A DNA stretch of 64,000 bases from Phycicoccus sp. M110.8 (GTDB lineage: Bacteria > Actinomycetota > Actinomycetes > Actinomycetales > Dermatophilaceae). Positions 27,976 to 54,787 of the stretch are shown in pieces; position 1 is the stretch's first letter; every line of letters starts with the position of its first letter. Under the pieces are notes generated by a model. It saw nothing but the letters and a program-made list of their open reading frames with translations, did no database searches and was not told the origin of the DNA. The position numbers and the translations under genes are program-made. Location: contig NZ_JAWDIC010000004.1 of assembly GCF_032464895.1 (NCBI RefSeq), positions 310,001 through 374,000 of the forward strand, written 5' to 3'.

Positions 27976-27989
27976 GGGCCCAAGGTCCC
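27976..27989. promoter_or_regulatory. DosR-like box, site 1
   Basis: GGGCC-CAAG-GTCCC, 78 nt upstream of the MgtA-like ATPase start (minus strand). First of eleven related sites; compare the mycobacterial core GGGAC-TWWA-GTCCC. Confidence 0.6.
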
Positions 27990-28008
27990 CACCGGCGGAC
28001 CGGGCCCG

Positions 28009-30198
28009 TCAGCCCGCGAGGACGACCAGCTGCTGGGTGGCGCGGGTCATCGCGACGTAGCGGTCCACGGCTCCCTCGATGCCGTCGCCGAACGACTCGG
28101 GCTCGACGAGCACGACGAGGTCGAACTCGAGCCCCTTGGCCAGCTGGGGCGTCAGCGAGCGCACCCGCGCCGTCCCGGCGAACGACGGGTCGCCGATGAC
28201 GCACGCGACGCCCTCGCCCTCGGCGTGCTCAACGAGCCAGGCGTCCACGACGCCCGGCAGGTCGGCGACGCGGCCGTGCACCACGGGTCGCCCGCTCGCG
28301 CGGACGGAGGTCGGGACGTTGGCGTCCGGCAGGGCGGCGCGGATCACCGGCTCCGCCTCGGCCATGACCTCCTGCGGCGTGCGGTAGTTGACCCCGAGGT
28401 GCGCCAGCCTGGCGCCGTCGAGGCCGATCCGGCCGAGCCGCTCCTGCCACGACTCGTGGAAGCCGTGCCGGGCCTGGGCGCGGTCGCCGACCACGGTGAG
28501 GCTGCGCGACGGGCAGCGCCCGAGCAGCATCTGCCACTGGGCGTCGGTGAGCTCCTGGGCCTCGTCGACGACGACGTGGGCGAACGGCCCGGCCAGCAGG
28601 TCGGGGTCGGCCGTGGGCACGCTCGCCTCGTCCACCAGGGCGGTCTGCAGGTCCTGCCCGCGCAGCATCGACATCACGTGCATCTCGGAGTCGTCGCTCG
28701 CGATGAGGTCGTCGACCACGCGCGACATCTCCTCGCGCTCGGCGGCCTGCACCGCCTCCCGCCGGCGCCGCTCACGCGAGGCCCGCGGGTCACCCAGGCG
28801 GCGGCGCGCGGCGTCGAGGAAGGGCAGGTCCGCGTCGGTCCAGGCGTCGGGCACCGCCCGCTGAAGGGAGCGCACCTCCTCGCTCGTCAGCCACGGGGCG
28901 CACAGGCGCAGGAACGCCGGGACGGTCCAGAGGTCGCCCACGAGGTCGGTCGGCTCGAGCAGCGGCCAGGCCCGCTCGACCGCGGCGCGCAGCTGCTCGT
29001 CCGAGCGCAGGGTCCGCGCGAGCAGCCGCTCGTCGACCTCGTCGACCTCGTCGCCGTCGCCGGCGCCACCTGTGTCCGCCTCCAGGCGCTCGGCCACCAC
29101 GGTCGCGAGCTCGTCCCAGAGGTCGTCGCGGGCCTCGTTGTGCGGCGTGCCGGGCGCGGGCGCGTCGAGCACGGTCGCCCAGTCCTCGGCGTCGAGCCGG
29201 ACCTCGCCCCACGGGGTCGACACGTCGAGCGGCTCCGTCGGCGCCTCCTCGTAGAACCGCACCGCCGCCTCGACCGCCGTGACCAGCCGCGCCGAGGCCT
29301 TGAGCCGCGCCACCTCGGCATCGGTCTCTGGCAGAGCCGTCGCACCCTCGGGGACCAGGTCGCGCAGGGTGCACGTCTGGACGCCCTCCTCGCCGAGGCT
29401 CGGCAGGACGTCGGCGACGTAGGCGAGGTACGGCTCGTGCGGGCCGACGAACAGGACCCCGCCGCGCCGGTGGCCGAGCCGGGGGTCGGAGTAGAGCAGG
29501 TATGCCGTGCGGTGCAGCGCCACGACCGTCTTGCCCGTGCCCGGGCCGCCGTCGACGACCAGCGCGCCCCGCGACCCCGCCCGGATGATGGCGTCCTGGT
29601 CGGCCTGGATGGTGCCGAGGACGTCGCGCATGCGGGGCGAGCGGGTGCTGCCGAGACTCGCGACGAAGGCGGACTGGTCGTCCAGCGACGCGGCGTGGCC
29701 CTGCAGCCCCTCGGCGGTGAAGACCTCGTCCCAGTAGTCGCTGACGCGCCCGCCCGTCCACCGGTAGCGCCGCCGGCTCACCAGCCCCATGGGGTTGGAG
29801 TGGGTCGCGCCGAAGAACGCCTCGGCGGCGGGGGAGCGCCAGTCGTGCAGCAGCTGGCGCCCGTCGTCGTCGCGCAGGCCGAGCCGGCCGACGTAGACGG
29901 GTTCGGGGTCGCCGGCGCGGACCACGTGCCCCAGGCACAGGTCGAGGCCGAAGCGGCGCAGCGCGCGCAGGCGTCCGCCGAGCCGGTGGACCTCGAGGTC
30001 GCGCTCGAGGGCCTCCTGTCCCGCGCGCACAGGTGCCCGGCGCTGCTCCTCGAGGCGCCGCGAGAGGGACGCCAGCGTCTCCTCCAGGGTCAGGCCGATG
30101 TCGCGGAAGTGCCGCTCGTCGTCGGCGATGAGGGTCGGATCGCCTTTGGCGGCAAAGCGTTCCGGGAGCGCGAACGCGCTCGTGGTGGGACTGGTCAC
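28009..30198 (-). CDS. helR: HelR/HelD-type RNA polymerase-recycling helicase
   Basis: A 729-aa superfamily 1 (UvrD/Rep-like) ATPase. The GTG start has GGAGG upstream. The N-terminal coiled coil (about 25-80, LEETLASLSRRLEEQRRAPV) is the part that enters RNA polymerase in HelD proteins; Walker A is GGPGTGKT near 217, Walker B VVVDEAQE near 546, and the C-terminal motifs include NYRTPQEV and YVAMTRATQQL. HelR in Streptomyces removes stalled or rifamycin-blocked RNA polymerase from DNA and gives rifamycin resistance. The rifamycin-associated element upstream makes HelR, not a repair helicase, the best call. Confidence 0.85.
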   Translation of the reverse strand: MTSPTTSAFALPERFAAKGDPTLIADDERHFRDIGLTLEETLASLSRRLEEQRRAPVRAGQEALERDLEVHRLGGRLRALRRFGLDLCLGHVVRAGDPEPVYVGRLGLRDDDGRQLLHDWRSPAAEAFFGATHSNPMGLVSRRRYRWTGGRVSDYWDEVFTAEGLQGHAASLDDQSAFVASLGSTRSPRMRDVLGTIQADQDAIIRAGSRGALVVDGGPGTGKTVVALHRTAYLLYSDPRLGHRRGGVLFVGPHEPYLAYVADVLPSLGEEGVQTCTLRDLVPEGATALPETDAEVARLKASARLVTAVEAAVRFYEEAPTEPLDVSTPWGEVRLDAEDWATVLDAPAPGTPHNEARDDLWDELATVVAERLEADTGGAGDGDEVDEVDERLLARTLRSDEQLRAAVERAWPLLEPTDLVGDLWTVPAFLRLCAPWLTSEEVRSLQRAVPDAWTDADLPFLDAARRRLGDPRASRERRRREAVQAAEREEMSRVVDDLIASDDSEMHVMSMLRGQDLQTALVDEASVPTADPDLLAGPFAHVVVDEAQELTDAQWQMLLGRCPSRSLTVVGDRAQARHGFHESWQERLGRIGLDGARLAHLGVNYRTPQEVMAEAEPVIRAALPDANVPTSVRASGRPVVHGRVADLPGVVDAWLVEHAEGEGVACVIGDPSFAGTARVRSLTPQLAKGLEFDLVVLVEPESFGDGIEGAVDRYVAMTRATQQLVVLAG

Positions 30199-30252
30199 GC
30201 GGGTCCTCCGTCTGTCCGGTGCGGTGTCCGGCCGGAAGTGTCCGCCACGACG

Positions 30253-30272
30253 GGGGCCTTGCCGCAAGCCCC
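30253..30272 (-). promoter_or_regulatory. Rifamycin-associated element (RAE)
   Basis: Read on the minus strand, the inverted repeat is GGGGCTTGCGGCAAGGCCCC, 55 nt upstream of the helR start. As I recall it, this equals the published 19-bp RAE that precedes rifamycin-inactivating enzymes and helR genes in actinomycetes and mediates rifampin-induced expression. Confidence 0.8.
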
Positions 30273-30932: not shown

Positions 30933-30934
30933 CG

Positions 30935-31085: not shown

Positions 31086-31099
31086 GGGACCTAGGGCCC
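31086..31099. promoter_or_regulatory. DosR-like box, site 2
   Basis: GGGAC-CTAG-GGCCC, 35 nt upstream of the SPFH start; the shortest spacing of the set together with site 5. Confidence 0.55.
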
Positions 31100-31134
31100 G
31101 CTCCCGGGGTCCGGCGCGGACGCATGGTGGACCC

Positions 31135-32037
31135 ATGGCTGTGGTGCTGTCCGTCATCGGGATCGTCGTCGTCCTGCTGCTCGTGCTCTCGCTGAGGATC
31201 GTCAAGCAGTACGAGCTGGGCGTGCTCTTCCGGCTGGGTCGCGTCATCGGGGTCCGCGAGCCGGGGCTGCGCGTCATCGTGCCCGTCATCGACGTGCTGC
31301 GCAGGGTCTCGCTGCGCATCGTCACGATGCCGATCCAGTCGCAGGGCATCATCACGCGCGACAACGTGAGCGTGGACGTCTCAGCCGTCGCGTACTTCCG
31401 GGTCGTCGACGCCGTGAAGTCGGTGGTGGCCATCGAGAACGTGTATGCCGCGATCGACCAGATCGCGCAGACGACCCTGCGCAAGGTCGTCGGGCAGCAC
31501 ACCCTCGACGAGACGCTGTCGGAGACCGACCGGATCAACCTCGACATCCGGCAGATCCTCGACGTCACCACGACCGAGTGGGGCGTGGAGGTGACGCTGG
31601 TCGAGCTCAAGGACATCCAGCTCCCCGAGAGCATGAAGCGCGCCATGGCCAAGCAGGCGGAGGCCGAGCGCGAGAAGAGGGCCAAGATCATCAACGCGGA
31701 GGGCGAGTCGCTGGCCGCCACCGCGCTGGGCCAGGCATCGGACGTGATGATGGCGCACCCGCTGGCGCTGCAGCTGCGCAACCTGCAGAGCCTGGTGGAG
31801 ATCGGCGTCGACAAGAACACGACCGTGGTGTTCCCGGCGCCGCTGATGAGCACGATCGAGGAGCTGAGCTCGTTCCTCGACCGCGAAGGGCGCAGGGCCG
31901 CCGCCACCGTCGCCACCGCCACGACCCAGGGGGCCGTGCCGGCCGCAGAGGCGGTCCAGGCCGGCAACGGGTCGGGGGGCCAGGCCGGAGGCTCGGGGGT
32001 CCAGGCCGGGAACGGGTCCGGAGTCCCGGCTGCCTGA
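31135..32037 (+). CDS. SPFH/Band 7 (stomatin-like) membrane protein
   Basis: A 300-aa protein: one N-terminal helix ([18 protein letters not shown]), then the Band 7 domain (about 25-240) with [40 protein letters not shown] and the helical [20 protein letters not shown] segment. The last 45 residues repeat VQAGNGSG and are low in complexity. Stomatin-like proteins form membrane rafts and partner with NfeD-type proteases; no nfeD is adjacent. The start chosen gives the helix directly after Met; an upstream ATG is out of frame. The stop lies inside a copy of a 16-bp repeat shared with the convergent gene. Confidence 0.85.
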
Positions 32038-32086
32038 CCGGCTCAGCCGGCGCTGCCTGACCGGCTCAGCGCCTGACCGGCTCAGC
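32032..32086. repeat. Three copies of GCCTGACCGGCTCAGC spanning two stop codons
   Basis: Copies at 32032-32047, 32055-32070 and 32071-32086. The first contains the SPFH stop (TGA 32035-32037), the last contains the stop of the convergent universal stress gene (TCA 32082-32084). Each copy is nearly palindromic (CTGA-CCGGC-TCAG), so the array probably acts as a multiple terminator. Confidence 0.75.
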
Positions 32087-33002
32087 CGGCGTGCGCGACG
32101 GCCGGGTAGGCCGCCGGGACGACGAGCGGTCGCGCGAGGGGGTCGGCGAGGGGCTGCACCACGAGCACGTCGCAGGGCGGGTCGTCCAGCAACCGGTGCA
32201 GGACCGAGCCGCGGGCCAGTCCACCCCGGCGCACGGCCGGCCCGGCCCCCACGACCAGCAGGTCGGCAGGGCCGAGGTCGCTGAGCAGGTGGACCTCGGG
32301 CGCACCCCGTACGACGCGCACGTCGCACCCGTCGACGCTGTTCCACGGCTCGGCGCGGACCGAGTCCCAGACCGAGCGCTGGACGTGGTCGACGTCGCGC
32401 CCGACCGCCGGCACGCAGGAGACGACCCGCAGGGCCAGGCCGCGGCGCAGGGCGGCGTCGGCCGCCACGGCGAGCAGCCTGGGGGAGTCCACGCCTGGGC
32501 GGAAGCCGACGGTCACCCGCGGCGGGCGCAGGACCACCGACCCGAGGCCGTAGTCCATGGGGCGCACGGGTCGCGGGTCGTCGTGCCCCGGCACCAGGAC
32601 GGGCCGGCCGAACCGGCGGGCGAGCACGTCACTGGTCGACCCCGGGCGGAAGGGGTGGTGTCCCCGGGTCCGCCGGCCGAGGACCAGCAGGGTCGAGCGG
32701 TCGGCCAGCTCCGACAGCAGCGGGTCCTCCAGGCTCTGGGCGACGACGGTCTCCACGCGGACGGTGGGGTCCGCCTCCTCCGCCTCGGTGGCGGCCCGCT
32801 GGACGAGCTCGTGGTCGCGGACCTCGCCGCGACCCGGGGGGTGGCCGGCCGCTGCGCGGGCCGAGAGGTGCTCGGCCACCCGCACGACGACCAGGTCCTC
32901 ACCTCGGCGCCCGGCCTCGAGCGAGGCCGTCCGGGTCGCGATGCCCGAGGCCCAGGAGCCGTCGCAGCCCACGACGACCACGGGCGCGTCGCCGATCGTC
33001 AT
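32082..33002 (-). CDS. Universal stress protein, tandem domains
   Basis: A 306-aa protein with two UspA-type domains. The first starts VVVVGCDGSWASGIATRTAS and ends LLVLGRRTRGHHPFRPGSTS; the second starts VTVGFRPGVDSPRLLAVAAD and ends VLHRLLDDPPCDVLVVQP. The ATP-binding G-x2-G-x9-G(S/T) pattern is present but altered in the first domain and degenerate in the second, so nucleotide binding may be partial. Rv2623-like tandem USPs of Mycobacterium are major DosR targets. Here a DosR-like box lies 74 nt upstream of the start. Confidence 0.83.
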   Translation of the reverse strand: MTIGDAPVVVVGCDGSWASGIATRTASLEAGRRGEDLVVVRVAEHLSARAAAGHPPGRGEVRDHELVQRAATEAEEADPTVRVETVVAQSLEDPLLSELADRSTLLVLGRRTRGHHPFRPGSTSDVLARRFGRPVLVPGHDDPRPVRPMDYGLGSVVLRPPRVTVGFRPGVDSPRLLAVAADAALRRGLALRVVSCVPAVGRDVDHVQRSVWDSVRAEPWNSVDGCDVRVVRGAPEVHLLSDLGPADLLVVGAGPAVRRGGLARGSVLHRLLDDPPCDVLVVQPLADPLARPLVVPAAYPAVAHAG

Positions 33003-33075: not shown

Positions 33076-33089
33076 GGGCCGAAGGTCCC
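33076..33089. promoter_or_regulatory. DosR-like box, site 3
   Basis: GGGCC-GAAG-GTCCC, 73 nt upstream of the tandem universal stress protein gene (minus strand). Confidence 0.6.
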
Positions 33090-33425: not shown

Positions 33426-33693
33426 TGCCCGTCCCAACCGGCGGCCCGGCGCCGCCTGTCCCTGGTGTCGGCAGACCTCTGGAGGTCATGCCGCACGGTC
33501 CGGGCGGTATGAAGAGGTGGTCTGTCGCGTTCTTCCTGTATACGCCGTGGGCACCACGGTGTCGATGGTCACGCAAGGCCATGGACTCCCGTGCCGACAG
33601 GTGCGTTCACGCCGGGCGCAGGTGGGGACCAACGGCCCTGCCGGGGCCGGTGCCACCGGACGGATGCTCGCCGCAGGCAGGAGGGAGCAGGCC

Positions 33694-34389
33694 ATGACCA
33701 GGACACGGGGACGGTGCGTCGTGGCTGCGGTCGTGCTGGTCGCCTGGGCGCTGACGGGGTGCAGCGGTTCCTCGGGCGGTGGGGGGACCAGCACGACCTC
33801 TCCTGCTCCCACCTCCGGCTCCGCCTCGACGTCAGCCTCGGCCTCGCCGAGCAGCTCCTCGAGCAGCACGTCGTCCTCGTCGACGACGGCGTCCTCGAGC
33901 TCCTCGTCGTCCGGTTCGTCGAGCTCCTCGACGACCTCGTCGCGGCCGACCCCGGGGACCGGCTGGACCTCCGGCCCGACCGTCGTCACCCGGAACCTGG
34001 CCGTGCCGCCCGTGCCACGGGTCGTGCGCATCCGCGCGGCGGCGCACTCCTCGGAGGGGTTCGACCGGATCGTGTTCGACGTCGAGGGACGGCTGCCGGG
34101 CTACGAGATCCGGTACGTCCCGGTCGTCGTGGCGGACGGGTCGGGCAAGCGCCTGGCCATGCCGGGCCGCCGCTACCTGCAGGTCGTCCTGCGGCCGGCC
34201 CAGGGGCACGACGACGAGGGCGAGCACGCCCTGACCGGCCGGCACGACCTGGGCTTCCCGATGCTCAAGGGGTACGTCGTGGCCGGTGACTTCGAGGGCG
34301 TCCTGACGATCGCGCTGGGGCTCGACGACGTCGTGGGCTACCGCGTGGGCGAGCTGCCGGGCCACATCTACATCGACGTCGCCGCCTGA
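33694..34389 (+). CDS. Lipoprotein with Ser-rich linker and AMIN-like domain
   Basis: A 231-aa lipoprotein. The signal peptide ends in LTGCSGSS (lipobox Cys about 23), followed by roughly 60 residues of nearly pure Ser/Thr/Pro, a flexible spacer across the wall. The C-terminal 125 residues (GFDRIVFDVEGRLPGYEIRY, LQVVLRPAQGHDDEG, VVAGDFEGVLTIALGLDD) fit the AMIN-like beta fold seen in actinobacterial lipoproteins, proposed to bind peptidoglycan or surface polymers. GAGGGAG precedes the ATG. Sixteen nucleotides separate it from the aldolase gene, so the two may be co-transcribed. Confidence 0.78.
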   Translation: MTRTRGRCVVAAVVLVAWALTGCSGSSGGGGTSTTSPAPTSGSASTSASASPSSSSSSTSSSSTTASSSSSSSGSSSSSTTSSRPTPGTGWTSGPTVVTRNLAVPPVPRVVRIRAAAHSSEGFDRIVFDVEGRLPGYEIRYVPVVVADGSGKRLAMPGRRYLQVVLRPAQGHDDEGEHALTGRHDLGFPMLKGYVVAGDFEGVLTIALGLDDVVGYRVGELPGHIYIDVAA

Positions 34390-34405
34390 CCAGAGGAGTC
34401 CAGCC

Positions 34406-35335
34406 ATGTCCCACCGTGTCGACGAGATCCTGTCGTGGTACCCGGCCGACGACCCCGCGACCCTCGCGCACCTGCGCCGCATCCTCATGCAGGGCCGCAC
34501 GGGCGGGTCCGGGAAGCTCGTCGTCCTGCCGGTCGACCAGGGCTTCGAGCACGGCCCCGGCCGCAGCTTCGCCGCGAACCCGGCCGGCTACGACCCGCGC
34601 TACCACGCCCGGCTCGCCCTCGACGCCGGGTGCAGCGCCCACGCCCTGCCCCTGGGTGCCGCGCGCCTGGTGGCGCCGGAGTATGCCGAGGACCTGCCCC
34701 TGATCCTCAAGTGCAACAACGCCGACGGCCTGTACGTCGGCGACGACCCCGAACCCGCGGTCGTCGCCGGGGTCGAGGAGGCCCTGGCCCTGCGGTGCGC
34801 CGCGGTCGGCTTCACGATCTACCCGGGCTCGGCGCGCAGGAACGAGATGTACCAGCAGCTGCGCGCCCTCGCGAGGGACGCCGAGGCGGCCGGGCTGCCC
34901 CTCGTCGTCTGGTCCTACCCGCGCGGCAGCGGTGTGAGCCAGGAGGGGCGCACGGCGGTGGACGTCGTGGCATACGCCGCGCACCTGGCTTGCCAGCTCG
35001 GCGCCCACGTCGTCAAGGTCAAGCCGCCGACCGAGCACATCGAGTCCGAGGCGGCGCGGGCCGCGCTGGAGAAGGCGGGGGTGCCGCTCGGGACGCTCGC
35101 GGACCGCGTGCGGCACGTCGTGCAGTCGGCCTTCGACGGCCACCGGATCGTCATCTTCTCCGGTGGTGCCGCGAAGGAGACGGCGGCCGTGCTCGAGGAG
35201 AACCGGCAGACCGCGATGGGCGGCGGGTTCGGGACGATCATGGGCCGCAACTCCTTCCAGCGACCGCACGACGAGGCGCTCCACCTGCTCGGCAACGTCA
35301 TGGACATCCACCTCGCGCAGGTGCCGGTCGGCTGA
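34406..35335 (+). CDS. fbaB: Class I fructose-bisphosphate aldolase (DhnA/FbaB type)
   Basis: A 309-aa TIM-barrel aldolase. The start region LVVLPVDQGFEHGPGRSFA is diagnostic of the archaeal-type class I family; the Schiff-base lysine lies in HVVKVKPPTEH near residue 205, and SGGAAKETAAV and GGGFGTIMGRNSFQRP bind the substrate phosphate. It cleaves or forms fructose-1,6-bisphosphate without a metal ion. Such enzymes usually serve gluconeogenesis or stationary-phase metabolism. AGAGGAG precedes the ATG. The next gene, Hsp20, has its own DosR-like box. Confidence 0.9.
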   Translation: MSHRVDEILSWYPADDPATLAHLRRILMQGRTGGSGKLVVLPVDQGFEHGPGRSFAANPAGYDPRYHARLALDAGCSAHALPLGAARLVAPEYAEDLPLILKCNNADGLYVGDDPEPAVVAGVEEALALRCAAVGFTIYPGSARRNEMYQQLRALARDAEAAGLPLVVWSYPRGSGVSQEGRTAVDVVAYAAHLACQLGAHVVKVKPPTEHIESEAARAALEKAGVPLGTLADRVRHVVQSAFDGHRIVIFSGGAAKETAAVLEENRQTAMGGGFGTIMGRNSFQRPHDEALHLLGNVMDIHLAQVPVG

Positions 35336-35344: not shown

Positions 35345-35358
35345 GGGACCTTGGCCCC
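35345..35358. promoter_or_regulatory. DosR-like box, site 4
   Basis: GGGAC-CTTG-GCCCC, 72 nt upstream of the Hsp20 start. In mycobacteria the Hsp20 homologue hspX/acr is the best-known DosR target. Confidence 0.65.
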
Positions 35359-35430: not shown

Positions 35431-35868
35431 ATGACAACAGTTGCCCGCCGTTCGACCGGCTCGATGATGTCCGAGCTGCTGGACTGGCTGGACCAGGGCT
35501 CCCCGTCAGGGGTGCGGGGTCTGGGGCTGGCGCCCTACGTCCGGGTGGAGGACTACACCGAGGACGACACGTACGTGCTGCGTGCCGAGATGCCGGGCAT
35601 CGACCCCGACAAGGACGTGACGTTGAGCATCGACGAGGACGTCCTCACCATCCGCGGCGAGCGCCGCGAGGAGCAGAAGGACAAGAGCCACCACGAGTTC
35701 CACTACGGCGCCTTCACGCGCAGCATCAGGCTGCCCGGGGACGTCGACCCCCGTGAGGTCACCGCCACCTACGCGGACGGCGTGCTCGAGGTGCGCGTGC
35801 CGACGCACCACGCCGACCACCAACCGGTGTCGATCCCGGTGCAACGGGCCGACAAGCCCGCGGACTGA
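35431..35868 (+). CDS. hsp20: Hsp20 / alpha-crystallin small heat-shock protein
   Basis: A 145-aa chaperone with AAGGAAG upstream. The alpha-crystallin domain occupies about residues 38-130: LAPYVRVEDYTEDDTYVLRA, MPGIDPDKDVTLSIDEDVLT, the FHYGAFTRSIRLPGDVD strand and the A-x-x-x-x-G-V-L motif (ATYADGVLEV). It prevents aggregation of unfolded proteins and forms oligomers. The P-type ATPase gene starts only 10 nt after the stop, so the pair should form one transcript from the DosR-like box. Confidence 0.92.
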   Translation: MTTVARRSTGSMMSELLDWLDQGSPSGVRGLGLAPYVRVEDYTEDDTYVLRAEMPGIDPDKDVTLSIDEDVLTIRGERREEQKDKSHHEFHYGAFTRSIRLPGDVDPREVTATYADGVLEVRVPTHHADHQPVSIPVQRADKPAD

Positions 35869-38446: not shown

Positions 38447-38614
38447 CTACGAGGCGCGCAGCCGGTGGCCGGAGCCGGCGGGGTGGTCGCGGCCGAACTC
38501 GTGCGCGAGGATCCGGCTGGCCTGGCGCGGGGTGATGAGCTCCAGCCGGACCCACCCCTCGAGGTGGCGCTCGAGCGCGAGGACGGGGATCTGCTCGCCG
38601 TGCGGTGTACCCAT
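38447..38614 (-). CDS. 55-aa protein of unknown function
   Basis: ATG at 38614 to TAG. The central part WVRLELITPRQASRILAHEF recalls the 'ITxxQAxxIL' helix at the start of several DUFs such as DUF2157, but the protein is too short for that family. The DosR-like box 36 nt upstream on its strand and the absence of any competing gene in the 84-nt leader suggest it is expressed. The product is mostly helical and basic. Missing from most automatic gene calls because of its size. Confidence 0.5.
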   Translation of the reverse strand: MGTPHGEQIPVLALERHLEGWVRLELITPRQASRILAHEFGRDHPAGSGHRLRAS

Positions 38615-38649: not shown

Positions 38650-38663
38650 GGGACCTAGGGCCT
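38650..38663. promoter_or_regulatory. DosR-like box, site 5
   Basis: GGGAC-CTAG-GGCCT, 35 nt upstream of the 55-aa ORF (minus strand); the nearest other gene (38699) points away from it only by its 3' end. Confidence 0.5.
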
Positions 38664-44203: not shown

Positions 44204-44282
44204 GGGGTCCTCCTTCGGTGCTCGCTGCAGCTGCCACGCTGCTGGTTCCACGGCATACGCCGCGTGCTGGTCGGCCGACCGC

Positions 44283-44594
44283 TCACGAGGGGTGCTGACG
44301 TCGGCGCAGGCGCTCCATCTCGGCTTCGACGCGCTCCGGACCGGGCTCGGGCCACAGGACGTCCCAGGCGTTGAGCACCAGGCCGATTCCCCACCCGAGC
44401 AGGATGAACACCGGCCAGAAGAAGCCCGCGCCGGTGACGAACCAGATGGTGATGAGCAGGGCGTTGACCATGACGTAGGACAGGACGTGGGCCATCAGCC
44501 CGCGCTTGTCCTTGAGCCGCTTGAGGGCCCGCTCCCTGAGCTCGGTCTCCTCCGTCGTGTCCTGACCCACAGGTGTGCGCACGTGGTCTGACAT
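44283..44594 (-). CDS. 2TM-domain small membrane protein
   Basis: A 103-aa protein from the ATG with AAGGAG 9 nt upstream. A basic helix RALKRLKDKRGLMAHVLSYV precedes two membrane helices (YVMVNALLITIWFV and FWPVFILLGWGIGLVLNAWD), matching the bacterial 2TM domain often found in kinases or alone. The C-terminus is charged. A DosR-like box lies 55 nt upstream, within the 3' end of the ATPase gene. A perfect palindrome GGTCGGCCGACC stands at 44269-44280, just after the stop. Confidence 0.75.
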   Translation of the reverse strand: MSDHVRTPVGQDTTEETELRERALKRLKDKRGLMAHVLSYVMVNALLITIWFVTGAGFFWPVFILLGWGIGLVLNAWDVLWPEPGPERVEAEMERLRRRQHPS

Positions 44595-44640
44595 CCGGAC
44601 CATCTCCTTCCCGATCCCCAGCATCGGCTGCGCGACGGCC

Positions 44641-47391: not shown

Positions 47392-47406
47392 GGCGGCCCG
47401 GACGGC

Positions 47407-47703
47407 TCAGAGCGGCCGGAGGGTGACGTCGTGCTCGCCGGTGACCTCCTCGATGTCCCCGGCGGCCGTGTCGAGCAGCCGGTCGGCGAGCCGGCGCAGC
47501 GCGCGGGCGACGGCGACCTCGTCGCCGATCTCCGGGACGTCGCTGTCGTTCGGCCCCCGGGTGCTGTCGCCGGCTGCCTCGATCGGCGTGGGGGAGTCGC
47601 CGTGCAGGACGGCGCGGGCGTGGGTGGCGCCCTCGTGCTCGAACAGGGTGAGCTGGACCTGCCACTGGCGGATGCGCGGTGGGGTCGATGCCGAACCGGT
47701 CAT
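47407..47703 (-). CDS. DUF1876 (dsRBD-like) protein, second copy
   Basis: A 98-aa protein with AAGGAG before its ATG. IGDEVAVARALRRLADRLLD followed by TGEHDVTLRPL is the same signature as the protein at 42981, with a longer acidic middle. Its first strand is IRQWQVQLTLFEHEGATHAR. DUF1876 proteins are frequent in DosR-like actinobacterial gene sets. It is 15 nt upstream of the ATPase and 58 nt downstream of the nuclease, so one transcript is probable. Confidence 0.78.
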   Translation of the reverse strand: MTGSASTPPRIRQWQVQLTLFEHEGATHARAVLHGDSPTPIEAAGDSTRGPNDSDVPEIGDEVAVARALRRLADRLLDTAAGDIEEVTGEHDVTLRPL

Positions 47704-47761
47704 GGGGCTCTCCTTCGCGGGGTCGGGACCACCCGGGGGCGGGCGGTGCGGTTGGGGGCCG

Positions 47762-49138
47762 TCACACGACGACCCGCTCGCCGAGGCGCGGGAGCGCGAC
47801 GGCACAGTCGAGGTGCTCGCGGACCCGCTGGGCCAGCGCGTCCCGCGAGGCGGGCTCACCGTGGACGAGGTAGACGACCTCCGGCGGCCGGGGCAGCCGG
47901 TCCAGCCACGACACGAGCTCGTCGGCGTCGGCGTGGACCGAGAAGGTGTCGTCGAGGACCACCTCGGCGCGGACGCGCACGTACTGGCCGAGCACCTTGA
48001 GCTCGCGGGCCCCCTCCTGCAGGGAGCGACCGCGCGTCCCGACGGCCTGGTAGCCGGTGAGCACCACCGTGTTCCTCGCGTGCGGCAGCAGGCTGGCGAG
48101 GTGGTGCACGACCCGGCCACCGGTGGCCATCCCGGAGGCGGAGACGATGATGCACGGCATACCGGGGGTGTTGAGCCGCCGCGACTCGTCGGCCGACCGG
48201 GCCTCGTGCACGTCGGTCATCGCCAGCAGCTCGGCGATCGCCTCCGGCCGCATCTCGGCGGCGAGGTCGGGGCGCTGGTAGACGTCGAGCGCCGCGAGGG
48301 CCATCGGGCTGTCCACGTGCACGGGCACCGACGGGATCCGCCCCTGGGCCCGCAACCGGGCGAGCGCGAGCAGCACGAGCTCGGTGCGGTCCACCGCGAA
48401 CGCCGGGATGAGGACGGACCCGCCGCGGCCGATGGTCCTGCGGATGGCGGCCGCGAGGGGCTCGTGCTGGTCCGACCCCGCGGAGTGCGGGTGCAGCCGG
48501 TCGCCGTACGTCGACTCCAGCACGACGGCATCAGCGGCGGGTGGGTCCTCGCGCGGCAGCAGGAGCGGGTGGGTGGGGCGTCCGAGGTCGCCGGAGAAGA
48601 GCACCGAGCGCCCGCCGGCCGTCACGTGCACCGAGGCGGATCCCAGGACGTGCCCGGCCCGGTGGAGCGTCACCGTCGCGCCGCCCGCCGTCTGCTGCGC
48701 CGCCGCGAACGGCACCGGCCGCACGAGGGCGAGGACGCGCTCGACGTCGGCCGCGGTGTACAGGGGCAGCGCCGGGTCGTGCTTGGAGTACCCCGCCGCC
48801 TGGGCGTATGCCGCCTCCTCCTCGAGCAGGTGCGCGCTGTCCCGCAGCACGATGGGGAGCAGCCCCGCGGTGCCGGCACTCGCCCACACCGGGCCGTGGA
48901 AGCCCTGGCGCACGAGGGCCGGCAGGTACCCGCAGTGGTCCAGGTGCGTGTGCGTGAGGACGACGTCCTCGAGGGTCTCCGGGTGCCCGATGGTGTGCTC
49001 CCAGTTGAGCCGGCGCCAGGACCGCTCACCCTGGTACAGCCCCGCGTCGACCAGCGTCCGTGAGCCCTCGTGCTCCACGACGAACTTGCTGCCGGTCACG
49101 GTGCCGGCCGCCCCGGCGAAGCTGAGGATGACGGACAC
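47762..49138 (-). CDS. MBL-fold / beta-CASP RNA-processing nuclease
   Basis: A 458-aa metallo-beta-lactamase protein from GTG with GGAGGGAG upstream. THTHLDHCGYLPALV is the zinc site (HxHxDH), then HRAGHVLGSASVHV and SGDLGRP; the beta-CASP insert and SASGMATGGRVVHHLASLLP and FSVHADADELVSWL complete the CPSF73/Ysh1-like family (YsH1 exonuclease). Such enzymes cut or trim RNA. It begins the minus-strand run to 44283. A DosR-like box stands 103 nt upstream and is shared with the divergent GNAT/CoA gene. Confidence 0.88.
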   Translation of the reverse strand: MSVILSFAGAAGTVTGSKFVVEHEGSRTLVDAGLYQGERSWRRLNWEHTIGHPETLEDVVLTHTHLDHCGYLPALVRQGFHGPVWASAGTAGLLPIVLRDSAHLLEEEAAYAQAAGYSKHDPALPLYTAADVERVLALVRPVPFAAAQQTAGGATVTLHRAGHVLGSASVHVTAGGRSVLFSGDLGRPTHPLLLPREDPPAADAVVLESTYGDRLHPHSAGSDQHEPLAAAIRRTIGRGGSVLIPAFAVDRTELVLLALARLRAQGRIPSVPVHVDSPMALAALDVYQRPDLAAEMRPEAIAELLAMTDVHEARSADESRRLNTPGMPCIIVSASGMATGGRVVHHLASLLPHARNTVVLTGYQAVGTRGRSLQEGARELKVLGQYVRVRAEVVLDDTFSVHADADELVSWLDRLPRPPEVVYLVHGEPASRDALAQRVREHLDCAVALPRLGERVVV

Positions 49139-49240: not shown

Positions 49241-49254
49241 GGGACCTTGGACCC
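49241..49254. promoter_or_regulatory. DosR-like box, site 9 (divergent)
   Basis: GGGAC-CTTG-GACCC, 59 nt upstream of the GNAT/CoA gene (plus) and 102 nt upstream of the nuclease (minus), so it may serve both. Confidence 0.6.
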
Positions 49255-49313: not shown

Positions 49314-51155
49314 GTGCCGGGGAGGACCTTGACGCGAGACGGTGCGCCCGTGGTGCTGCGGGTGCCGCGGCTGGACGACCTGGACCGTGTCCAGCGCCTG
49401 CTCGACGGGCTGTCCGCCCGCTCCAGCTACCAGCGCTTCCTGTCCGCGTCCCCGCTGTCGGAGGAGTACACGGCGGTCCTGCTGGACCGGCACCGGACGC
49501 TGGACGCCCTGGTCGCCACGATGGGGGACGCCGTGGTCGCGGTGGGGTCGACGCACCGGCTCGACGCGGACAGCGCGGAGTTCGCGGTCGCCGTCGCCGA
49601 CCGGGTCCAGGGCCACGGCGTGGGCACCCTGGTGCTCGAGGGGCTCGTGGACCGGTCGATCGCGCGGGGACTGCACACCCTCAGCGGGCAGGTGCTCAGC
49701 ACCAACGGCCAGATGCTCGACGTCCTGCGACACCTGGGCCCCGACGTGCGGGTCGACGCGCAGGAGGGGGTCGCCGACGTCTGGATCGACCTGGACCGGG
49801 TGGAGGACCTGCGCCGGGCCATGGGGGCCCGCACCGACATCGCCTGGCACGAGTACCTCGACCCGTTGTTCCACCCCGAGTCGGTGGTGGTCGTGCACGA
49901 GGACGGGCCCGAGCGGTGGACCGGAACAGCGGGCGCGCTCCGCGTCCGCAGCAGCGCGCCGGTGCGGCACCTCACTGTCCCGCTGGACCGTGGACCCCGC
50001 GGCGAGCTGCCGCTCCTGCTCGACCTGGCCGTCGTCGGGGACGTCTCCGACCCGGCCCGCGTGGTCCGCGAGGTCGTCGGTGCCGGGGCCCGGGCCGTGG
50101 TGCTCGGTTCCGGCCGTCCGGCCCAGGAGGTCACAACGACGGTCCTCGAGGCCGCCCGCGTGGCGGCCGCCATCGGCGCCCGGGTCATCGGTCCGGGGGC
50201 TCGCCTCGTCGCCGGCACGCGGGAGCCGGGTGCCCTGTGGGTCGGGACCGCGGCCGCGCACCTGCGGCCTGGGACCGTGGCGGTCGTCGGCGACCGGGGG
50301 CGCGCGACCGAGCTGGTCACGCGACTGGCCCGGCACCACGTCGGCATCGCGGCCGCCGTCGACCTCGGTGCCGCGGTCGGTGTCGGTGTCCCGGACGCCG
50401 CGGCGTGGCTCGCGGGCGAGCCCGGTGTGGGTGTCGTGCTGGTCTCGTCGGACACGACGAGCGGCCGTGCCCTCGCCCGGGCCCTGGCGCACCAGGCGCC
50501 GCACGGTGCCCCTGTCGTGGCGCGGCTGGGCCAGGCACCCCCGACCAGCGGCGGCTCCCCGTGGTACGTCGCTGCCGCCGACGTGCACGAGCTGGTGTCG
50601 ACCGGGCGGCTCTGCGCCACGGGGACCGGCTCCCCGGCCGCACGGGTGGTGCTGCTGACCAACGACCCGTGGAGCGAGCACGCCGGCGCCAACAAGCGTC
50701 TCCCGGCACTCGGCCTGTCGCTGCCCGACCTCACGCAGTACGTCGAGCGACGGGTCAAGGCGCTGGTCCCCGGCACCCGGGTGCGCGGGGCGGTCGTGGC
50801 CCTCGAGCGCGACGTCGCGGCGGGTCCGCTGGCGGCAGTGCTCGACAGCCTCTGCGAGGAGCCGGGCGTGGACGCGGTCGTGGTGGACGTGGCGCCGACG
50901 CCGCGGCTGCGCCGCAGGGAGCTCGACCGGGTCGTCGGCCTGGTGCACGAGTCGCACCCGGGCGTGGCGCTCCTGCTGGTCGACGGAGGCCTGCTCGACG
51001 CGCACGGGCACCCGCTGCGCAGCGACGTCCCCAGCTTCGCCGACGACGCCAGGGCCCTGCGTGCCCTGTCGGTGGCTGGTCGTGCCGGGCGCGTCGAGGA
51101 CTGTGAGGGGCTCCTGCCGGCGCCCGGCCCCCGCGGGGGCCGACGACGGCGGTGA
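49314..51155 (+). CDS. GNAT acetyltransferase fused to CoA-ligase-like domains
   Basis: A 613-aa protein; the GTG is preceded by GGGAGGAGGG. Residues 1-165 are a GNAT domain with AVADRVQGHGVGTLVLEGLV (acetyl-CoA loop). Then follow a CoA-binding Rossmann part (VVGDVSDPARVVREVVGAGA) and two succinyl-CoA-synthetase-like flavodoxin parts (VAVVGDRGRATELVTRLARH, VVLLTNDPWSEHAGANKRLP), but no ATP-grasp region. Actinobacterial Pat-type lysine acetyltransferases with GNAT plus acyl-CoA synthetase parts have a similar order. It may acetylate proteins in response to CoA state. The missing ATP-grasp argues against ligase activity. Confidence 0.72.
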   Translation: MPGRTLTRDGAPVVLRVPRLDDLDRVQRLLDGLSARSSYQRFLSASPLSEEYTAVLLDRHRTLDALVATMGDAVVAVGSTHRLDADSAEFAVAVADRVQGHGVGTLVLEGLVDRSIARGLHTLSGQVLSTNGQMLDVLRHLGPDVRVDAQEGVADVWIDLDRVEDLRRAMGARTDIAWHEYLDPLFHPESVVVVHEDGPERWTGTAGALRVRSSAPVRHLTVPLDRGPRGELPLLLDLAVVGDVSDPARVVREVVGAGARAVVLGSGRPAQEVTTTVLEAARVAAAIGARVIGPGARLVAGTREPGALWVGTAAAHLRPGTVAVVGDRGRATELVTRLARHHVGIAAAVDLGAAVGVGVPDAAAWLAGEPGVGVVLVSSDTTSGRALARALAHQAPHGAPVVARLGQAPPTSGGSPWYVAAADVHELVSTGRLCATGTGSPAARVVLLTNDPWSEHAGANKRLPALGLSLPDLTQYVERRVKALVPGTRVRGAVVALERDVAAGPLAAVLDSLCEEPGVDAVVVDVAPTPRLRRRELDRVVGLVHESHPGVALLLVDGGLLDAHGHPLRSDVPSFADDARALRALSVAGRAGRVEDCEGLLPAPGPRGGRRRR

Positions 51156-51232: not shown

Positions 51233-51246
51233 GGGACCAAGGTCCT
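51233..51246. promoter_or_regulatory. DosR-like box, site 10, no protein gene downstream
   Basis: GGGAC-CAAG-GTCCT in the 307-nt gap between the convergent GNAT/CoA and DsrE genes (51156-51462). A GTATCG sequence follows at once. The absence of a gene on either strand is unusual among the eleven sites. Confidence 0.5.
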
Positions 51247-51345
51247 GTATCGGACGGAGCACGGCGGCCTAGCGTCGGCACAGGGCGCTGGGCCGGTGGT
51301 GCGGTTGGCACCCAGGGAGCGCTGGCACGCGCCCTGCCCGGAGGG

Positions 51346-51390
51346 GCTGGGTCGTCCCGGGTGCGTCAGGCGCACCGGGGACGACCCAGC
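51346..51390. terminator. Long hairpin in gap 51156-51462; possible end of a small RNA
   Basis: The arms starting GCTGGGTCGTCCC and ending GGGACGACCCAGC pair over 13 bp, then one G:G mismatch and six more pairs around a 5-nt loop: 19 of 20 pairs. It is much longer than the other hairpins here. It lies 100 nt after DosR-like box 10, so it could end a small RNA, or simply terminate the two convergent genes. No other gene is visible in this gap. Confidence 0.5.
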
Positions 51391-51462
51391 GGACCCGGAC
51401 CGCTGCCGCACGGGGCAGGCACCCGAGAGGCGGCTGGGGGCCGTGGGGCGGCTGGGGCAGGC

Positions 51463-51975
51463 TCAGATGAAGAGCAGCTGGGCCCCGTCGGTCTTCTCGA
51501 TGAAGTCGGCGGCGCTGATGATGCCCTCCACCTCCTCGTAGAGGTCCTCCTCCGTGAGGTGGTTCATGTCGGCCGACAGGCGGCACGCCCACAGGTGGCC
51601 GCCGGAGTCGACGATCTGCTGGAGGAACTCCGGCACCTCGGGGACGTCGACCTCGGCGATCGACTTGCGCAGCCGCGACGTCGCCATGTGCGTGATGCCG
51701 GGCAGGCCGCCGAGGCCCTGCGGCATGTGCGTCGCCGTGTTACCCAGCGGGCTGAACTTGAGCTCGCCCATCGTCTTCTTGTTGATCATGTCGAAGCCCC
51801 AGAAGGTGAAGAACAGGTGCGTCTCCACCCCCTCGCCCAGGGCGGCGTTGGCCAGGATGAGGCCGGGGTAGGCCATGTCGAGGTTCCCCTTGGAGCAGAT
51901 GATGGCGAGCTTGCGGCCCGCCGTCGCCTCGGTGCCGAAGTCGGGGATGATGGCGGGGGCTGTGTCGGTGGTCAT
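51463..51975 (-). CDS. DsrE/DsrF-like sulfur-carrier family protein
   Basis: A 170-aa protein, ATG with AAGGAG upstream. KLAIICSKGNLDMAYPGLIL (Cys27) begins a DsrE-type fold, followed by THLFFTFWGFDMINKK and GGHLWACRLSADM with Cys about 131. These cysteines stand where DsrE2/DsrE-like proteins carry persulfide sulfur. It is the last gene of the sulfur operon and follows DsrC/TusE with 48 nt between. It would pass sulfur between DsrC and an acceptor. The family also occurs with rhodanese or sulfur oxidation genes. Confidence 0.82.
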   Translation of the reverse strand: MTTDTAPAIIPDFGTEATAGRKLAIICSKGNLDMAYPGLILANAALGEGVETHLFFTFWGFDMINKKTMGELKFSPLGNTATHMPQGLGGLPGITHMATSRLRKSIAEVDVPEVPEFLQQIVDSGGHLWACRLSADMNHLTEEDLYEEVEGIISAADFIEKTDGAQLLFI

Positions 51976-52023
51976 CGTGCGTTCTCCTTGGTGTGCAACG
52001 GTGTCGGGGTCGGCAGCGGTCGG

Positions 52024-52338
52024 TCAGACGCAGCCGTGGGGCTTGGGCAGGCCCGCGACGTAGGCGAGCTTCTTCGCCGGCTTCTGCGGGAAGAGGGCGA
52101 AGAGCTCCTTGACCGGTATGCCGCCCACGGTGCTGATGCGCCGCAGCGTCGCCGTCTCGCCCTGGTCGGCGAAGTCCTGGCGCAGGAACCGGATCGCGCG
52201 CCAGTGCTCGTCGGTCAGGTCGATGCCGATCTGGGCGGCGAGGGCCTTGGCGAGGTCCTCGTCCCACTCGGCGTACTCCGTGAGGAAGCCCTCGGGGTCG
52301 ACCTGGACCGTGTGGCCTGCGATGGTCGTGACGGGCAT
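52024..52338 (-). CDS. tusE: DsrC/TusE sulfur-transfer protein
   Basis: A 104-aa protein ending AGLPKPHGCV, the flexible DsrC/TusE arm with the penultimate Cys103 that carries the persulfide. The second conserved cysteine of true DsrC, eleven residues upstream, is replaced (LAYVAG), so it is the TusE-like single-cysteine kind. WDEDLAKALAAQIGIDLTDE is the family N-terminal signature. It must get sulfur from a partner such as DsrE and hand it to an acceptor. GGAGAAG precedes the ATG. No tusBCD or dsrAB genes are nearby. Confidence 0.88.
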   Translation of the reverse strand: MPVTTIAGHTVQVDPEGFLTEYAEWDEDLAKALAAQIGIDLTDEHWRAIRFLRQDFADQGETATLRRISTVGGIPVKELFALFPQKPAKKLAYVAGLPKPHGCV

Positions 52339-52360
52339 CGGACTTCTCCTTCTCTGGTGG

Positions 52361-53638
52361 TCACATGTGGACGACGGGCGTGGATGCGTCGGCCGTGGGT
52401 GCGTCCGCCGGGACCTGCTTGCCCGTCATCGACATGTGGTCGGGCAGCGGCAGGTAGCGGCCGGGGAGCAGGACGTTCCAGTAGATCCAGCGGAACGCGA
52501 GCTTCCCGAGGTGGTTGGCGCGGGTCTCCTTGAGCAGGCTCAGCGGCCCGACCCCCGGCAGCGGGAACTTCCCCGGCAGCGGCTGGGTGTCGTAGTTGAA
52601 GTCGATGAGCAGGCCCTTGCCGTCACCGGACTCGACGAAGCAGTTGGCGTGCCCGTCGAAGGAATGCGGCATCGGGCGACCGGCGGCGTGGGCCACGAAG
52701 TTCTCCACGAACAGGTCGACGGCGAAGTGCGCGACGGACCCGGCCTTGGAGGCGGGGATGTCGGAGGCGTCGCCGACCGCGAAGATCGTGTCGTACTTCG
52801 TCGAGAGCAGCGTGTGCTTGTCCACCGGGACGTAGTTCAGCTCGTCGCCCAGGCCCGACCGGGCCACGTAGTCGGCGCCCATGTTGAGCGGGACCGTGAC
52901 CAGCAGGTCGAACGGCACCTCGCGCTCGTCGTAGGAGACGAGTGCCTTGTGCTCGTCGTCGACCCGCTCGACCATGAAGTCGGGCTCGACGAGGATCTTG
53001 CGCTCCTCGAGCATCGACCCCAGGTGGGCGGACGCGATCGGCTGGGTGAAGGCCCCCGACAGCGGCGTGACGAAGACGAGCTCGACGCGGTCGCGCACGC
53101 CCCGCTCGCGCAGGTGGGCGTCCGCGAGGAAGGTAAACTCCAGCGGCGCCACCGGGCACTTGATCGGCATCTCCGTGACGTGGACGACGAGCCGGCCGTG
53201 GTCGAAGTGGCGCAGCGCGTCGGCCAGGGCCCTGGACCCGTCGAAGGTGTAGAAGTCGAAGATGCTGCGGCGCCACTGCTCGCCCAGCATCCCGGGCGTC
53301 TGGTCAGGCCGCGGCGACGTGCCCGTCGCGATGACGAGATAGTCGTACGCGAGGGTGCGCCCGTCCTGCAGGTGCACGACCTGCTCCTCCGGGGCGACCC
53401 GGTCGATCTCGGCGAGCACCAGGTCGACCCCGTCGGGGATGAACCGGTGCCGCTTGCGCACGACCTGCTCGGCGGCATACGTCCCGAACGGCAGGAAGAG
53501 GAACCCGGGCTGGTAGAGGTGGTCGTCGTCGCGGTCGACGACGGTGATCTGCCACGACCGGCGGTCCAGCCGGCGTCGCAGCTTGTTCACGACCATCGTG
53601 CCGGCGGTCCCGCCGCCGAGCACCACGAGGCGCTTCAT
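52361..53638 (-). CDS. sqr: Sulfide:quinone oxidoreductase-like flavoprotein
   Basis: A 425-aa two-dinucleotide-binding-domain flavoprotein. FAD site KRLVVLGGGTAGTMVVNKLR, VIATGTSPRPDQTPG in the middle and FAVGDASDIP near 285. Cysteines at about 159 (MPIKCPVAPLEF) and 332 (HANCFVESG) are where sulfide:quinone oxidoreductases hold the persulfide. The C-terminal amphipathic part (KLAFRWIYWNVLLPGRYLPL) could attach to the membrane to reach quinone. It probably oxidises sulfide to sulfane sulfur that DsrE and TusE then carry. Type II NADH dehydrogenase is the main alternative, but lacks such cysteines. Confidence 0.83.
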   Translation of the reverse strand: MKRLVVLGGGTAGTMVVNKLRRRLDRRSWQITVVDRDDDHLYQPGFLFLPFGTYAAEQVVRKRHRFIPDGVDLVLAEIDRVAPEEQVVHLQDGRTLAYDYLVIATGTSPRPDQTPGMLGEQWRRSIFDFYTFDGSRALADALRHFDHGRLVVHVTEMPIKCPVAPLEFTFLADAHLRERGVRDRVELVFVTPLSGAFTQPIASAHLGSMLEERKILVEPDFMVERVDDEHKALVSYDEREVPFDLLVTVPLNMGADYVARSGLGDELNYVPVDKHTLLSTKYDTIFAVGDASDIPASKAGSVAHFAVDLFVENFVAHAAGRPMPHSFDGHANCFVESGDGKGLLIDFNYDTQPLPGKFPLPGVGPLSLLKETRANHLGKLAFRWIYWNVLLPGRYLPLPDHMSMTGKQVPADAPTADASTPVVHM

Positions 53639-53653
53639 GGCCTTCGTCCCCTC

Positions 53654-54700
53654 TCAGGACCGAGCCGTGAGGACGACCTTGAGGGCCTGGGTGTCCGCCG
53701 CGTTGGCGAAGACCTCGTAGGCGTCCATGAACTCGTCGAGGTGGAAGTGGTGGGTCACGAGCTGGCCGAGGTCGAGCTGCCGGCTGGCGAGCAGCCGCAG
53801 CAGGGTCGGCGTCGAGTACGTGTCGACGAGGCCGGTCGTGATGGTGACGTCCTTGATCCACAGGTCCTCGAGGTGCAGGGTGGCCGGCTTGCCGTGGACG
53901 CCGACGTTGGCGACGGTGCCGCCGGGGCGCACGAGCGCCGCACACTGCTCGAAGGTGCCGGGGATGCCCACGGCCTCGATCGCGACGTCGGCGCCGAGCC
54001 CGTCGGTGAGCCCGCGGACCACCTCGAGCGCGTCGTCCCGCGAGGCGTCGACGACGACGTCGGCGCCGACCCGCTTGGCCGCGTCGAGTCGCGAGCCGGC
54101 CACGTCGATGGCGACGACGTGCGAGGGGCTGAAGAGCTTGGCGCCCATGATCGAGGAGAGCCCGATGGGGCCGGCGCCGACGACGGCGACGACGTCACCG
54201 GGGCGCACGTGCCCGTTGAGGACGCCGACCTCGTACCCGGTGGGGCCGATGTCGGCCAACATGAGGACCTCCTCGTCGGTGACGCCGGCGGGGATGGCGA
54301 AGGTGGAGGTGTCGGCGAACGGCACCCGCACGTACTCGGCCTGCGTGCCGTCGATGAGGTGGCCGAGGATCCAGCCGCCGCCGCCGAGGCACTGCCCGTA
54401 CCGGCCCTCGCGGCAGTACCGGCACGACCCGCACGAGGTGATGCACGAGACGAGGACGCGGTCGCCGGGGGAGAGGTTCTTGACCCCGGCACCGATCGAC
54501 TCGACCGTGCCGACCGCCTCGTGGCCGAGGATGCGACCATCGGTCACCGCCGGGACGTCGCCCTTGAGGATGTGCAGGTCGGTGCCGCAGATGGTGACCG
54601 CGTCGACCCGGACGATGGCGTCGGTGTCGTCCTGGATCGAGGGCGTGGGGACCTCCTCCCACGACTTGCGGCCCGGTCCGTGGTAGACGACGGCGTGCAT
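53654..54700 (-). CDS. Zinc-dependent alcohol dehydrogenase
   Basis: A 348-aa medium-chain dehydrogenase with AGGAGCTCACC before the ATG. Catalytic Cys38 in TICGTDLHILKG, His/Glu in ILGHEAVGTV, structural zinc CGSCRYCREGRYGQC near 91-105, NAD loop VVGAGPIGLSSIMGAK. It resembles the iditol/threonine-type group. It starts the sulfur operon, 15 nt before the sulfide oxidoreductase gene, with a DosR-like box 74 nt upstream. Substrate could be an alcohol or a thiol-adduct; the link to sulfur genes is unexplained. Confidence 0.88.
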   Translation of the reverse strand: MHAVVYHGPGRKSWEEVPTPSIQDDTDAIVRVDAVTICGTDLHILKGDVPAVTDGRILGHEAVGTVESIGAGVKNLSPGDRVLVSCITSCGSCRYCREGRYGQCLGGGGWILGHLIDGTQAEYVRVPFADTSTFAIPAGVTDEEVLMLADIGPTGYEVGVLNGHVRPGDVVAVVGAGPIGLSSIMGAKLFSPSHVVAIDVAGSRLDAAKRVGADVVVDASRDDALEVVRGLTDGLGADVAIEAVGIPGTFEQCAALVRPGGTVANVGVHGKPATLHLEDLWIKDVTITTGLVDTYSTPTLLRLLASRQLDLGQLVTHHFHLDEFMDAYEVFANAADTQALKVVLTARS

Positions 54701-54773
54701 GGTGAGCTCCTCTCGCGGCCTGCACCGTGCAGGTCCCACGAACCACTCCACCGTGCGCCGGCGCGGGGCAGGA

Positions 54774-54787
54774 GAGACCTAGGTCCC
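54774..54787. promoter_or_regulatory. DosR-like box, site 11
   Basis: GAGAC-CTAG-GTCCC, 73 nt upstream of the sulfur operon. A weaker second site, GCAC-CTAG-GGGGT, follows near 54804. It marks the end of the box-bearing region. Confidence 0.55.

Follow-up and report, generated by a model that had tools for sequence, protein, structure and literature searches.

We analyzed a 64,000-nucleotide window of the Phycicoccus sp. M110.8 genome (4.12 Mb, 7 contigs), spanning positions 310001-374000 of contig C4, that carries a set of conserved 14-bp boxes probably belonging to a DosR/OsdR-type low-oxygen regulon. The initial annotation had proposed 11 boxes of the form GGGMC-CWWG-GTCCC between 27976 and 54787, and all 11 were located there. 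The boxes at 27976, 31086, and 39692 matched GGGMCCWWGGTCCC exactly on 1 strand, and the other 8 had 1 mismatch. Box 51233 has no gene downstream.

The leftmost box (27976-27989, minus strand) lies 77 nt before the start of a magnesium-type P-type ATPase (25211-27898, minus; TIGR01524 above cutoff) and shows no exact match to the predicted -10 element (nAnnnT) that follows many of the boxes at a fixed offset. Box 31086-31099 (plus) is followed by the -10 element CATGGT at 31123-31128 and a predicted transcription start at 31135, which is also the ATG of an SPFH/Band 7 protein (31135-32037, plus; start moved from GTG 31141) whose mRNA is predicted to be leaderless. A universal stress protein (32082-33002, minus) begins 73 nt from box 33076-33089 (minus, CAGGCT), and box 33625-33638 (plus), with a GATGCT that is off the rule by 1 base, precedes an AMIN-like lipoprotein (33694-34389, plus) and then a DeoC/LacD-like aldolase gene (34406-35335). 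Box 35345-35358 (plus, AACGGT) lies 72 nt from the corrected start of an Hsp20 chaperone (35431-35868, plus), which is followed by a P2-type ATPase (35917-38439). Two small open reading frames (ORFs) without a Pfam match follow: a 55-aa ORF (38447-38614), predicted to be leaderless, 35 nt from box 38650-38663 (minus, CAGCCT), and a 135-aa ORF (39211-39618), the best candidate target of box 39692-39705 (minus), 73 nt away, with a -10 match on neither strand. A further box with 2 mismatches (40142-40155, plus), lacking a full -10 match, lies 78 nt before an alcohol dehydrogenase gene (40234-41271).

Farther right, box 44649-44662 (minus, GATGCT) lies just before the next gene, overlapping an ATPase gene at its 3' end, and heads a putative operon of a 2TM protein, a universal stress protein, and an Rv2632c-like protein (42981-44624, minus); operons here and below are predicted from gene spacing. 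Box 49241-49254 lies between divergent genes and has an exact -10 element on either side (GAGAGT, plus; GACGAT, minus), facing a GNAT protein with a CoA-ligase-like part (49350-51155, plus) and a putative operon of a beta-CASP nuclease, an Rv2632c-like protein, and a P2-type ATPase (44641-49138, minus). The orphan box 51233-51246 (plus) is followed by TAGCGT at 51270-51275. Box 54774-54787 (minus), whose -10 element is without the A, lies 73 nt from the start of an alcohol dehydrogenase that would be cotranscribed with FAD/NAD reductase, DsrC-like, and DsrE2-like genes (51463-54700, minus). The last putative operon, comprising a NarK-type transporter, hemerythrin, narGHJI, and a 116-aa ORF (54900-63871, minus), has its box just outside the window at C4:374033 (window position 64033; CACCCT), and another box follows at C4:378458. 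Divergent from this unit is an AAA_33 protein gene, with PPDK and stress protein genes farther right. The island holds the proposed boxes at 27976-54787 and runs further right than initially drawn, to narK-narGHJI, PPDK, and dosRS.

The boxes are far more numerous than expected by chance. At 2 or fewer mismatches, the window gave 30 strand-hits against a shuffle mean of 6.2 (standard deviation 3.1, maximum 16; 100 shuffles). Genome-wide, at 1 or fewer mismatches, 79 strand-hits were found against 7 with the reversed pattern (approximately 11-fold). Counted as distinct sites, these come to 49: the 11 window boxes and 38 others. Ten of the 11 window boxes are intergenic, counting box 33625, where an ORF called over the box was judged false on reading the sequence; with 88.6% of the island coding, the binomial probability is approximately 4e-9. 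Outside the window, 30 of 38 boxes are intergenic by box midpoint, as judged with our own simple gene caller. Because most boxes in both sets lie between genes, the motif is not equally frequent in coding DNA, the outcome that had been named as speaking against a regulon. In box number, this genome was an outlier, with the largest excess among 148 genomes of the class and 29 close relatives (own genome in both sets); the runner-up was the genus relative G157 (57 versus 18).

We identified a regulator and sensor of the kind that the initial annotation had recommended looking for. Searches of the genome gave 11 HisKA_3 and 26 GerE matches, with 1 kinase and 1 regulator together at C4:389743-393791, in the gene order CBS-BON protein, kinase, universal stress protein, and regulator. 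The kinase/regulator pair itself (C4:390394-393791) lies on the same contig, 16-20 kb beyond the right end of the window, and the operon has its own box at C4:389655, with 2 mismatches and an exact-offset -10 element, 74 nt before the first start. The top solved-structure match of the regulator was M. tuberculosis DevR (3c3w, 3e-63, 216.7 bits), followed by VraR at 126.8 bits. Of 205 residues aligned with DevR, 113 are identical, including T82, K104, the phospho-acceptor D54 (PMC3029386), and the DNA contacts K179, K182, and N183 (PMC5999986). This score difference, together with the conserved residues, identifies the regulator as a DosR orthologue, and it is the only DosR match at E <= 1e-50 in the genome; no NCBIfam model naming DosR or DosS scored above a cutoff. 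The first GAF domain of the kinase best matched the GAF domain of DosT (4e-49) and next that of DevS (1e-44). The positions of His149 and Tyr171, proximal and distal in the heme-GAF sensor (PMC4082495), are conserved in an alignment whose assumed chain offset, 57, is the one that accommodates both. The Glu87 position is Gly, as in DosT (PMC4082495), which may point to oxygen sensing rather than redox sensing.

The box of this clade is GGGNC-NWWN-GNCCC, intermediate between the mycobacterial DosR and Streptomyces OsdR forms; the proposed boxes are real, and their CWWG center is narrower than that of the clade. The GGGxC/GxCCC half-site palindrome is present in the regulon promoters and before the operon of the regulator, whereas the center of the mycobacterial core quoted in the initial annotation (GGGAC-TWWA-GTCCC) is not retained, centers being mostly C/G beside an A/T pair. 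Compared with the OsdR consensus of Streptomyces coelicolor, AGGGCCGATCGGCCCT, which also has C/G beside the center (PMC5069765), half-sites and flanks agree, while the center (mostly CTTG, CTTC, or CAAG here) and right arm (mostly GTCCC or GACCC) often differ. The stringent DosR motif of M. smegmatis, GGGACTTNNGNCCCT, is close to the form found here (PMC6448022). The exact CWWG consensus was rejected as a general motif of the clade, as it was often at or below control level over the 148 class genomes, and among genus relatives it ranged from the excess in G157 to 12 versus 18 in G149.

Boxes of the broader form recur beside DosR in other genomes. At E <= 1e-50, DosR had a match in 113 of the 148 class genomes and in 20 of the 29 close relatives, and among the best 80 of 586 confirmed loci (the named loci), the closest DosR was that of Knoellia locipacati (80%). 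Around DosR, 110 of 114 sites were intergenic in the named loci (5 reversed-control sites), 20 of 23 in 9 genus loci (0 control), 8 of 10 in 7 family and order loci (0 control), and 11 of 13 in the 110-kb stretch of this genome (2 control), the counts being slightly inflated by a few records shared between the named and other loci. The families behind boxes were dosR (29 loci), universal stress proteins (18), PNPOx-like (15), nitroreductase-like (10), phosphoketolase-like (10), dosS-like (7), magnesium-type ATPase (6), CydA-like (5), GNAT-CoA (4), and CBS (4) proteins, with the nitroreductase, phosphoketolase, and CydA names read from sequence without a scan. In 96 DosR stretches, the combination of box and gene recurred for the magnesium-type ATPase, both P2-type ATPases (paralogues, largely at the same loci), SPFH, Hsp20, 4 of 5 universal stress proteins, both Rv2632c-like proteins, beta-CASP, GNAT (1 locus here, 4 at the looser setting above), alcohol dehydrogenase ADH2, PPDK, OsmC, CBS, and PNPOx3. 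It was not found in these stretches for universal stress protein 32082, PNPOx 30426, DeoC, GyrI-like, alcohol dehydrogenase ADH1, DsrE2, DsrC, FAD reductase, AAA_33, and SDR, nor for HelR, DUF3806, AMIN, 55-aa, 45-aa, 2TM, 116-aa, NarG, hemerythrin, and NarK, which had no homologue there.

The gene set mirrors the dormancy regulon, as initially proposed, and overlaps known DosR/OsdR regulons: the core targets, namely, Hsp20, universal stress proteins, and nitrate respiration genes, are all present here. Rv2632c/Rv1738-type and CtpF-type genes are also part of the mycobacterial DosR regulon. With the DosR/DevR-DosS/DosT system of M. tuberculosis, the island shares the orthologous regulator and heme-GAF kinase (heme being predicted here), Hsp20, universal stress, and Rv2632c-like genes, the half-sites, and a start-proximal site that overlaps the -35 element in M. 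tuberculosis (PMC3029386) and is predicted to do so here. It differs in having C/G rather than T/A beside the 2 central A/T bases, dosR in a CBS-kinase-universal stress protein-regulator operon, mostly single boxes, and nitrate, sulfur-transfer, beta-CASP, and GNAT genes within the island. OsdKR of S. coelicolor is likewise an orthologous pair with targets clustered around the regulator and shares universal stress, alcohol dehydrogenase, PPDK, nitroreductase, and Nar2 nitrate reductase genes (PMC5069765), although its target list is partly different, and the sequence here gives no indication of a sporulation link. A literature search for DosR in Intrasporangiaceae, Micrococcales, or Nocardioides gave nothing on point by title.

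Promoters scanned by base position after the box point to a fixed arrangement of box, 24 nt, A, 3 nt, and T. Among 81 promoters with the box 60-110 nt from the start, A was found at position 25 in 41, T at position 29 in 43, and both in 37. Positions 24-29 would form the -10 element nAnnnT, with transcription predicted to start at base 36, which places the center of the box 42.5 bp upstream, where it would overlap the -35 element as does the start-proximal DevR site (PMC3029386). The composite of box and -10 element gave 26 hits in this genome against 0 in the control (23 between genes, 1 partly, and 2 inside), and, with genomes counted as independent, 271 versus 97 in 112 other DosR-positive genomes and 20 versus 21 in 35 negative ones, where the absence of a match at 1e-50 served as a proxy for lacking DosR. 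A looser composite with a free center and 1 mismatch was uninformative (512 versus 510). In the window, 7 of 11 boxes had the exact-offset -10 element (31086+, 33076-, 35345+, 38650-, 44649-, 49241 both ways, and 51233+), all facing a gene except 51233, against a chance rate of 1.4% per orientation; none of 4 two-mismatch sites inside genes had it. With the fixed-spacing rule, the most useful result added by this analysis, DosR targets can be predicted in other actinobacterial genomes.

Two ranges of distance from box to start codon recur. At 33-37 nt, the named set had 25 cases against 4.8 expected and the genus set 6 against 1.1, while at 70-89 nt, the genus set had 13 against 3.9 but the named set only 22 against 14.7. 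The initial annotation had 6 boxes at 72-79 nt; after correcting start codons by hand, we found 5 of the 11 at 72-77 nt (27976, 33076, 35345, 39692, and 54774), and the two-mismatch box 40142 at 78 nt brings the number to 6. With boxes dropped at random in the same gaps, 6 in any 7-nt bin had P 0.0002 over 11 box-start pairs (44649 and 51233 excluded, 49241 counted twice, and 40142 included), in a test that is partly circular, with the starts for 31086, 35345, and 39692 re-chosen from promoter or ribosome-site signals. Since the predicted transcription start at base 36 coincides with the first base of the start codon in the 35-nt class, these mRNAs are predicted to be leaderless. An alternative in which their start codons were wrongly placed, or the A/T match arose by chance, is unlikely. 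Such an explanation draws on starts taken from our own caller, on the 35-nt peak, which weakens on collapse to families because many cases are homologous (6 versus a mean of 1.05 per position; pointwise P 7e-4, approximately 0.08 corrected for 111 positions), and on 17 dosR genes at 35/36 nt, which have A at -11 in 16 and T at -7 in none, along with an AGAAAGG-like sequence that could serve as a ribosome site. However, all 13 non-dosR genes exactly 35 nt from the box carry both A (-11) and T (-7), the same offsets recur in the 60-110-nt class, and ribosome-site-like sequence precedes only 4 of the 15 non-dosR genes with a distance of 35/36 nt, compared with 78 of 101 where the distance is 50-110 nt. 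In this genome, 5 of the 26 composite hits have a start at exactly 35 nt, and the corrected SPFH start makes 6.

Taken together, the boxes are, with a probability of about 90%, binding sites of the DosR/OsdR-type regulator encoded beside the window, whose heme-GAF kinase would sense low oxygen or nitric oxide, and the stretch is, very probably, a true island of low-oxygen response genes. The boxes, the regulator pair, its conserved residues, the fixed spacing, and the recurrence beside DosR elsewhere support this DosR-like reading at the sequence level, and the system falls within the known DosR/OsdR kind, in which it is set apart by a box variant of its own and an unusually large regulon. Use of the boxes by another NarL/LuxR-type regulator is improbable: the 26 GerE-domain matches leave candidates, and NarL-family regulators can share similar palindromes, but the single DosR match lies beside the boxes and behind one of them, its DNA-contact residues are identical to those of DevR, and enrichment of composite promoters is confined to DosR-positive genomes. 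It would be more surprising still if these G+C-rich palindromes were nonregulatory and kept as terminators, repeats, or methylation sites, a reading that suits their composition and symmetry but conflicts with the reversed control, the intergenic bias, the fixed -10 offset, and the link with DosR. Several observations nevertheless weigh against assignment to DosR. Most promoters here have a single box, with 3 at C1:2179203-2179405 and 2 at C4:572997-573160, while some mycobacterial ones need 2 or more (PMC3029386). Boxes 27976, 39692, 40142, and 54774 lack a full -10 element at the place set by the rule. Some close DosR carriers, such as G149 (12 versus 18) and G156 (19 versus 26), show no enrichment of the exact CWWG form, and either their boxes differ or their regulons are small. 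Relatives gave no confirmation of the boxes ahead of the sulfur, 2TM, AMIN, ADH1, and nitrate genes, although in most cases the stretches searched contained few homologues or none.

Under DosR control, the mechanism that we predict would begin with the DosT-like heme-GAF kinase sensing falling oxygen, or nitric oxide, and phosphorylating the regulator. The regulator would then bind the box centered approximately 42.5 bp before the transcription start, replacing the -35 element, and recruit RNA polymerase to the weak nAnnnT -10 element. Chaperone, universal stress, cation pump, nitrate respiration, alcohol dehydrogenase, and PPDK genes would be switched on, as would Rv2632c-like, RNA-processing, and sulfur-transfer genes. 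We regard as evenly balanced a wider proposal, in which a rigid box-N24-A-N3-T promoter without a -35 element operates across Actinomycetes, with start codons on the transcription start (35 nt) or approximately 40 nt further, yielding leaderless and short-leader mRNAs that are possibly translated differently in dormancy, and in which the regulon here is enlarged (26 composite promoters; sulfur-transfer, RNase, and GNAT genes) and may extend to a new DosR-driven small RNA that starts at 51282. Leaderless mRNAs are common in M. smegmatis; in the accessible portions of the literature on DosR/OsdR and leaderless mRNAs, a fixed-spacing leaderless class within the regulon was not found, an absence that is weakly supported.

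These results place a full DosR/OsdR-type regulon in the family holding Austwickia and Nostocoides. NCBI taxonomy assigns Austwickia to Dermatophilaceae and Knoellia to Intrasporangiaceae, and GTDB unites such genera in Dermatophilaceae. The RNase, GNAT protein, and sulfur-transfer genes suggest dormancy functions beyond those of mycobacteria, and a nonmycobacterial relative that carries this regulon offers a possible model of dormancy control. In M. tuberculosis, DosR is prevented from binding DNA when K182 is acetylated (PMC5999986), which draws attention to the GNAT protein; one may speculate that this protein acts on DosR here. DosS also mediates the action of H2S in M. tuberculosis (PMC9062744), and with sulfur-transfer genes behind a DosR box here, a sulfide link is testable.

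The orphan box 51233, with its perfect TAGCGT at the right place, faces the gap between convergent genes and may drive a small RNA. The hypothetical RNA (51282-51392, plus; 3' end guessed) has a folding z of -5.0 and a long hairpin at its end, which may be only a terminator. DrrS, a DosR-regulated small RNA of M. tuberculosis with strong structure (PMC5360333), provides a precedent and resembles the candidate in its DosR control and structure, both predicted here, but not in sequence or family. Promoter and hairpin were found in this genome only in a DNA search of 11 genus genomes (a short, unrelated-looking match in G149 aside), so the candidate is not conserved in the 10 genus relatives, and an Rfam scan of 25000-64000 gave nothing at gathering score.

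Other genes inside and outside the island were also of note. A HelR-type RNA polymerase recycling ATPase (28009-30198, minus; NF041254, 1223.7 bits, cutoff 750) lies inside the island and was rejected as a regulon target, having no box ahead of its gene. For the beta-CASP nuclease (47762-49138, minus), the best NCBIfam score came from the type VII CRISPR Cas14 model, at 293.6 bits well short of the cutoff of 800, with archaeal aCPSF1 at 257.2 (cutoff 580.2). On contig C1, the 3 boxes within approximately 200 bp stand before a GAF-ANTAR protein gene adjoined by a second one (C1:2178966-2181552), a possible link from DosR to RNA-binding antiterminators. A second small cluster (C4:571234-575780) has a composite box 35 nt before a phosphoribosyltransferase gene, 2 boxes before a universal stress gene, and 1 between universal stress and flavodoxin-like genes. 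Finally, a box lies approximately 100 nt ahead of cydA, encoding cytochrome bd oxidase (C1:1879457-1880887; Pfam-confirmed).

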